A stretch of DNA of 64,000 bases from Candidatus Bathyarchaeia archaeon (GTDB lineage Archaea > Thermoproteota > Bathyarchaeia > Bathyarchaeales > Bathycorpusculaceae): assembly GCA_030019335.1 (NCBI GenBank), contig JASEET010000004.1:1-64000 (forward strand), written 5' to 3'. Positions 2,410 through 60,342 of this stretch are shown in pieces (within the stretch, counting starts at the first letter, position 1; each line of letters begins with the position of its first letter). Below the pieces are notes generated by a model, which worked only from the letters and a program-made list of their open reading frames with translations, had not been told where the DNA came from and did no database searches. A program made the translations under genes and the position numbers.

Positions 2410-3119
2410 TTGGAAAGAAAGGATTGGGAAAGACTCATTGAAAATCTGGTGAAAGAGGGCATTCTCCGCTCGCCGAAGGTTATTAGGGCTATGCGTTCAG
2501 TGCCTCGTGCAAACTTCCTTCCAGAAAACATGCAGTCTTATAGTGCTGTTGACACGCCGCTTCCAATAGGGTTTGGACAGACTGTTTCGGCGCCACATAG
2601 CCTTGGCTTAGATGCTGGGCTAGGCGAAACATGGTTTCAATAATGAATGAAGCCCTCCAATTGGAAGTAGGCCACAAAGTGCTGGAGGTCGGAGCGGGTT
2701 CGGGATGGCATGCCGCAACCATAGCTGAGATAGTTGCACCAGGCGACACGCCCAGAAGCGAATGGGGTCACGTTTATACAGTGGAAATAATCCAAGGCTT
2801 GGCTGAATTTGCTAGAAGAAACATCATGAAAGCTGGATACGGCGACCGTGTAACAATAATCTACGCAGACGGGTCGATGGGTTATCCCGAAAAGGCCCCC
2901 TACGACAGAATCCTTGCGACAGCCGCTGCACCAGATGTTCCCAAACCTCTAATTGAACAGCTAAAGCCTAACGGAATTATGCTAATTCCTGTTGGAAGCA
3001 TGTACCTATTCCAAAGTCTCGTGAAAATCATGAAGGAAATTAATGGGAAAATAAAGAAAGAAAACCTAGGCGGAGTTGCCTTCGTCCCATTAACCGGGCG
3101 TTATGGTCACAGATTTTGA
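2410..3119 (+). CDS. pcm: Protein-L-isoaspartate O-methyltransferase, interrupted by a 32-nt insertion (candidate intron 2597-2628)
   Basis: ORFs 2410-2643 and 2631-3119 are two halves of one PCMT (…[16 protein letters not shown] | [29 protein letters not shown]…); joining 2410..2596 to 2629..3119 gives one 225-aa frame. Confidence 0.9.
2597..2628 (+). other. Candidate BHB-type archaeal mRNA intron (32 nt) in pcm
   Basis: Central helix CGCC(2591-2594)/GGCG(2623-2626), 5' bulge ACA(2595-2597), inner helix UAGCCU/GGGCUA, 3' bulge AAA(2627-2629); cutting after the second nt of each bulge removes 32 nt and restores SAPHMV. Confidence 0.72.
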
Positions 3120-60242: not shown

Positions 60243-60342
60243 AGCGGGGTGGGGTAGCCAGGATTAACCCGCTGGGCTCATAAGGGCTTGGATGCTCCGA
60301 GAGACCCAGAGATCAGTAGTTCAAATCTACTCCCCGCTACCA
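60243..60342 (+). tRNA. Initiator tRNA-Met(CAU) with 21-nt intron at 37/38 (60283-60303) and encoded CCA
   Basis: AGCGGGG…CCCCGCT acceptor (A1:U72), CTGGG/CCCAG anticodon stem with three G:C pairs, CAT at 60279-60281, T-loop TTCAAAT, ACCA 3' end; BHB around intron. Confidence 0.93.

Follow-up and report, generated by a model that had tools for sequence, protein, structure and literature searches.

Since 2002, cbf5 has been the only protein gene of archaea known for a bulge-helix-bulge (BHB) intron in its coding sequence. This intron was described in crenarchaea, where the motif is often relaxed (Watanabe 2002; Yokobori 2009, PMC2738675). Splicing of mRNA by the BHB route is a known capacity, since spliced crenarchaeal cbf5 cDNAs were reported (PMC2738675); the same paper also mentions putative introns of 12 bp in the protein genes of an archaeal virus. 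According to a paper of 2020, the cbf5 mRNA was until then the only additional archaeal case of a BHB intron, besides the authors' own in the 5' UTR of Haloferax HVO_1309 (PMC7714728). A sequence-only reading of the DNA studied here had held that mRNA introns are established for very few archaeal genes, which agrees with that account, where cbf5 alone is named.

The same reading placed an intron of this kind in pcm, the gene of protein-L-isoaspartate O-methyltransferase (PCMT). Like the cbf5 intron, the putative pcm intron is a BHB element within coding sequence, would be cut between the second and third bulge nucleotides by a heteromeric endonuclease, splits a codon after its first letter and seems to combine an old gain with lineage-specific losses. 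It differs in gene, site and exon partner sequence, and its lineages are Bathyarchaeia and other groups of the phylum rather than crenarchaea. The cbf5 intron, unlike that of pcm, lies in the codon of the catalytic Asp. With archaeal tRNA introns of the relaxed HBh' type it shares a central helix of 4 bp, bulges of 3 nt, a single flanking helix and the presumed enzymes, but its host is an mRNA, in which there is no tRNA body. As in Haloferax HVO_1309, an mRNA would be the substrate of EndA; however, the Haloferax motif is in the 5' UTR, whereas that of pcm interrupts the coding sequence and its removal would be needed for the full protein. The pcm element therefore appears to represent a new gene, a new site and other lineages for a cbf5-type intron. 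No report of an intron in pcm or hypD was found in the open-access literature that was searched.

The pcm locus and its predicted fold

The window, i.e., the whole stretch of 64,000 nucleotides analysed (contig JASEET010000004.1, positions 1 to 64,000), belongs to a Bathyarchaeia MAG of 1.64 Mb with an estimated completeness of 100% (G000). In the ORF list, pcm falls into two ORFs in different frames, 2410-2643 (77 aa) and 2631-3119 (162 aa). The unspliced pieces reach only 52 and 144 bits against Pfam PCMT, whereas a continuous protein of 225 aa, matching the family over residues 7-220 with 211 bits, is obtained when the 32 nt at 2597-2628 are removed. A genome search of G000 revealed no second pcm, the other matches being weak methyltransferase similarities. 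The parts of the locus are as follows:

2410..2596, + strand: pcm exon 1, with TTG start, codons 1-62 and the first base of His63
2597..2628, + strand: predicted pcm intron, 32 nt, with excision between bulge nucleotides 2 and 3 on both sides
2629..3119, + strand: pcm exon 2, with bases 2 and 3 of the His63 codon, followed by Met64 up to the stop
2591..2594, + strand: 5' strand of the central helix, CGCC, on the exon side, with the wobble position of the Ala codon at 2592
2623..2626, + strand: 3' strand of the central helix, GGCG, intron side, partner of CGCC
2595..2597, + strand: 5' bulge of 3 nt, ACA, with the predicted cut following C2596
2627..2629, + strand: 3' bulge of 3 nt, AAA, with the predicted cut following A2628
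2598..2603, + strand: 5' strand of the inner (intronic) helix, UAGCCU, pairing with GGGCUA
2617..2622, + strand: 3' strand of the inner (intronic) helix, GGGCUA, pairing with UAGCCU

In all likelihood, the 32-nt insert is an archaeal-type pre-mRNA intron that is cut by EndA and joined by RtcB, giving a PCMT of 225 aa. In the transcript, the exonic CGCC would pair with the intronic GGCG, forming with the two 3-nt bulges and the intron-internal helix a relaxed BHB (HBh'). A heteromeric EndA (alpha and beta) would cleave after C2596 and after A2628 and RtcB would ligate the exons, by which the His codon would be rebuilt from C and AC and the spliced mRNA could be translated into one continuous protein. 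Every base and pair of the motif named in the sequence-only reading was confirmed on direct reading, and its 32-nt length, the restoration of the frame and the near absence of an outer helix hold as well.

The last point concerns the class of the motif. Next to the bulges, a second flanking helix between the exons is absent beyond the single pair G2590-C2630, in disagreement with the canonical hBHBh' form, and an alternative outer helix, GUUUC/GAAAC, is not conserved among carriers. Because this helix is missing, the putative intron is filed under the relaxed HBh' class, which has no outer helix and is among the intron motif classes named in PMC6379350. No Rfam family matches the window, and a group I or group II ribozyme core was not found, the insert being 32 nt long.

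Both presumed splicing enzymes are encoded in G000. It had been suggested that the genome be checked for a heteromeric tRNA-splicing endonuclease, and two EndA paralogues were found. Catalytic Tyr, His and Lys are all present in the alpha-type protein (185 aa, C44:117120), which is most similar to the archaeal EndA chains 2cv8 and 3p1z, and the beta-type protein (198 aa, C66:48896) is without His at the aligned position. This is the pattern of an (alpha-beta)2 enzyme, into which the two would assemble; endonucleases of this heteromeric kind accept relaxed motifs. The exon ligase RtcB is also encoded. Many tRNA matches in G000 are 92-125 nt long, the length expected of intron-bearing genes. In one tRNA of the window (60243-60342, + strand), the anticodon loop CTCATAA is followed by about 21 inserted nt; this tRNA was called Tyr(ata) by ARAGORN and looks like a miscalled tRNA-Met(CAT) with an intron at 37/38.

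The geometry itself is cheap. When 1.23 Mb of the 1.64-Mb genome were scanned blindly for the motif (4-bp central helix, 3+3 bulges, inner helix ≥5 bp) with an open frame on either side, 282 sites were returned; BHB geometry with open frames is insignificant on its own and recurs by chance in this genome. Among 50 sites with longer frames that were inspected, pcm and cbf5 stood out as interrupted genes, while the remaining ones looked like adjacent genes, antisense noise or a homopolymer frameshift. A codon-score version of the scan missed pcm. At about 176780 of contig C22 (about 18380 of L312), the frame of a nucleotidyltransferase/CDP-alcohol transferase-like gene is broken at a T run, which is probably a one-base indel and not an intron.

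Folding of the single sequence was likewise indecisive as a proof of the BHB. The minimum-energy fold of the 60-mer around the intron is another structure, which uses the non-conserved GUUUC/GAAAC pairing (-18.9 vs -13.0 kcal/mol for the BHB; z = -1.1). Against the intron thus stand a lowest-energy fold of the isolated 60-mer other than the BHB, an outer helix of one base pair and a geometry that recurs by chance. Because that geometry is common and the minimum-energy fold differs, the claim rests on conservation and covariation, both of which are overwhelming.

Conservation, cut register and covariation

In protein searches, pcm proved to be divided in two in most of the family and undivided in its other members, and public records of Candidatus Bathyarchaeota are likewise split or whole. 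The break always lies at one residue, after Ala-Pro-His and before Met. Intronless alleles, which the sequence-only reading had proposed to seek in close relatives, occur in the same family and are 81-85% identical.

A covariance model built from 45 pcm introns matched 110 of the 257 genomes of the class (E up to 1). When 11 genomes with weak or unverified matches only were left out, about 99 of the 257 carry the insert at the identical site, which is probably a lower bound because the filters lose weak matches. The loci fetched from these 99 genomes at the model match were all pcm, with the exception of one extra chance match in G059. Six genomes of family f10 are included, with introns of 21-26 nt. 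Carriers are also present in families f15 and f17, which belong to other orders (30 and 48 nt), and a broader model added six carrier genomes outside the class, in families f33, f34 and f43. The insert is 21-48 nt long across carriers; in Ca. Bathyarchaeum tardum (L064), the pcm intron has 30 nt. Two further model matches were rejected as chance resemblances with uninterrupted ORFs across the match, one in a P-type ATPase gene (L157, 993-1050) and the other in a flavoprotein-like/FAD-dependent gene (L158, 1001-1030). In three genomes of family f32 (G290, G323 and G329), the pcm matches contain one in-frame TAG each, which may represent premature termination or recoding.

Mechanistic analyses were made on 85 distinct carriers, which are mutually related. 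The insert breaks the frame in every one of them, by a stop in the stretch read in 63 and by a shift in 22, and the central 4-bp helix, between two 3-nt bulges on opposite strands, is present and paired in all. A cut between bulge nucleotides 2 and 3, the endonuclease rule that the sequence-only reading had applied, restores Ala-Pro-His-Met in 85/85, compared with 0-68 for other registers. This includes 23 carriers in which the genomic codon before the insert reads Leu, Gln or Arg; His results from the BHB cut in all 23. The bulge bases destined for the exons are fixed while the intronic ones vary. In the 5' bulge, the second (exonic) base is C in 85/85 and the third (intronic) is A, U or G; in the 3' bulge, the third (exonic) base is always A and the two intronic bases are AA, AG, AU, AC, UU or UA.

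These data bear on whether full-length PCMT could be made from the unspliced mRNA by programmed frameshifting or by ribosomal bypassing over the hairpin that the insert forms inside the coding gene, which is very unlikely. A single shift cannot suffice, since the insert lengths fall into all three frames and in-frame stops occur among the inserts. Bypassing needs matching take-off and landing codons, but the insert is preceded mostly by the codon CAU, otherwise by CUC, CUU, CAG or CGC, and the ATG by the triplet AAC, GAC, UAC or CAC. Neither process explains the compensated exon-intron pairing or the paired 3-nt bulges.

The pairs of the motif show changes on both sides. Among the 45 introns, 8 of the 11 pairs have changed on both sides; in a broader set of 48, 97.5% of cells are paired vs 21-44% for slid versions, and double-sided changes occupy 93 cells vs 31 in shuffles. 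In the inner helix of these 48 sequences, each of the six pairs has changed on either strand and 95.7% of cells are paired. At 2592, the third base of the Ala codon, the exon-intron pair is G-C in 77, A-U in seven and G-U in one of the 85 carriers, with the A-U swap distributed over four families (f8, f9, f17 and f34). The compensatory changes that had been named as a check are therefore present, a synonymous exon base included, and the secondary structure of the insert is conserved with compensatory change, which is a criterion for a BHB intron.

Codon usage at the exon border follows the same pattern. The Ala codon is GCG in 78/85 carriers and GCA, with U as the partner, in 7/85, never GCT or GCC; for GCG, 13/37 intronless archaeal pcm genes compare with the 78/85 (p = 2e-10), and for the His codon CAC, 20/37 compare with 85/85 (p = 6e-11), both values overstating independence, as the carriers are related. 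The fixation of CAC is perhaps explained by the single outer pair, in which its C is the partner of the Ala codon's first base. In comparisons of the window with other carriers, pS values of 0.23-0.69 and pN values of 0.03-0.12 were obtained for exon 1 as well as exon 2; therefore both halves of pcm are maintained under purifying selection.

Two maintained halves could also belong to a gene that is truly split, with polypeptides of 77 and 162 aa assembling into PCMT, and exon 2 indeed opens with an ATG codon (2631). However, intronless PCMTs have that Met too, the insert has a conserved structure in which exon 1 is a pairing partner and a synonymous exon base covaries, and the joining His is restored in 85/85 carriers, which makes a split enzyme highly improbable. 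A pseudogene or an error of assembly or sequencing is harder still to accept: the data are from MAGs and a homopolymer-type frameshift exists in another gene on contig C22, but the insert recurs in independent MAGs from many studies, is structured and 21-48 nt long, and both exons are under purifying selection. Excision at the DNA level or insertion of mobile DNA, which the short inverted repeat and patchy distribution might suggest, can practically be dismissed, because the structure spans exon and intron with the bulges needed for EndA, no protein is encoded in the element and Rfam contributes no family in the window.

Probable introns of cbf5 and hypD and evolutionary history

The cbf5 gene of G000 contains a BHB intron of 22 nt (G000:C11, minus strand, 294374-294395; L298), which was recovered by the blind scan as an internal control and sits at the classical crenarchaeal site. 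A BHB is present at that site in 20 related genomes (L345-L373). After YIRKL, this cbf5 matches Pfam Intein_splicing with 34.5 bits, just under the cut-off, and the gene appears to carry an intein as well as the intron. The presence of the two introns is independent, since in G006 and G014 cbf5 is split and the pcm intron is absent.

A phylum-level match of the pcm model led to hypD of G439, which is split by 26 nt. The gene is interrupted between VCGT and HE in five further genomes, of family f54, by introns of 20-25 nt. The BHB has a central helix of CGGY/GCCG, the cut between bulge nucleotides 2 and 3 restores V-C-G-T-H-E in 6/6, and the spliced part scores 277 bits against Pfam HypD. These elements are in other families of the phylum:

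L231, L243, L254, L256, L257 and L263: predicted hypD introns in six genomes, 20-26 nt

The hypD element would be another archaeal protein-gene intron, apparently unreported.

Mapped on a protein tree built for 123 pcm genes, the presence of the intron requires 13 changes, compared with a mean of 33 after shuffling. Carriers span several orders and intronless clades are nested within intron clades, which points to an old gain that was probably followed by repeated precise losses; alternatively, as the deep branches are weak, there may have been several gains. Loss could have occurred via recombination with cDNA or by deletion. Most likely, the pcm intron is a relic of nearly neutral effect, which has been kept because its splicing works. 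A more far-reaching possibility, which we consider doubtful, is that EndA-spliced coding introns, found in at least three unrelated genes (cbf5, pcm and hypD), are a regular ancient feature of uncultured Thermoproteota, gained by reverse splicing and kept for regulation through splicing or retention.

With pcm, whose intron is broadly conserved, as the second gene and hypD as the third, a curiosity would become a class, the gain, loss and upkeep of which are open to study. In many environmental genomes, gene callers would report two false ORFs in place of each such gene, and as a result the enzymes look absent or truncated. Moreover, where exon bases pair with the intron, splicing would impose selection on synonymous codon positions.
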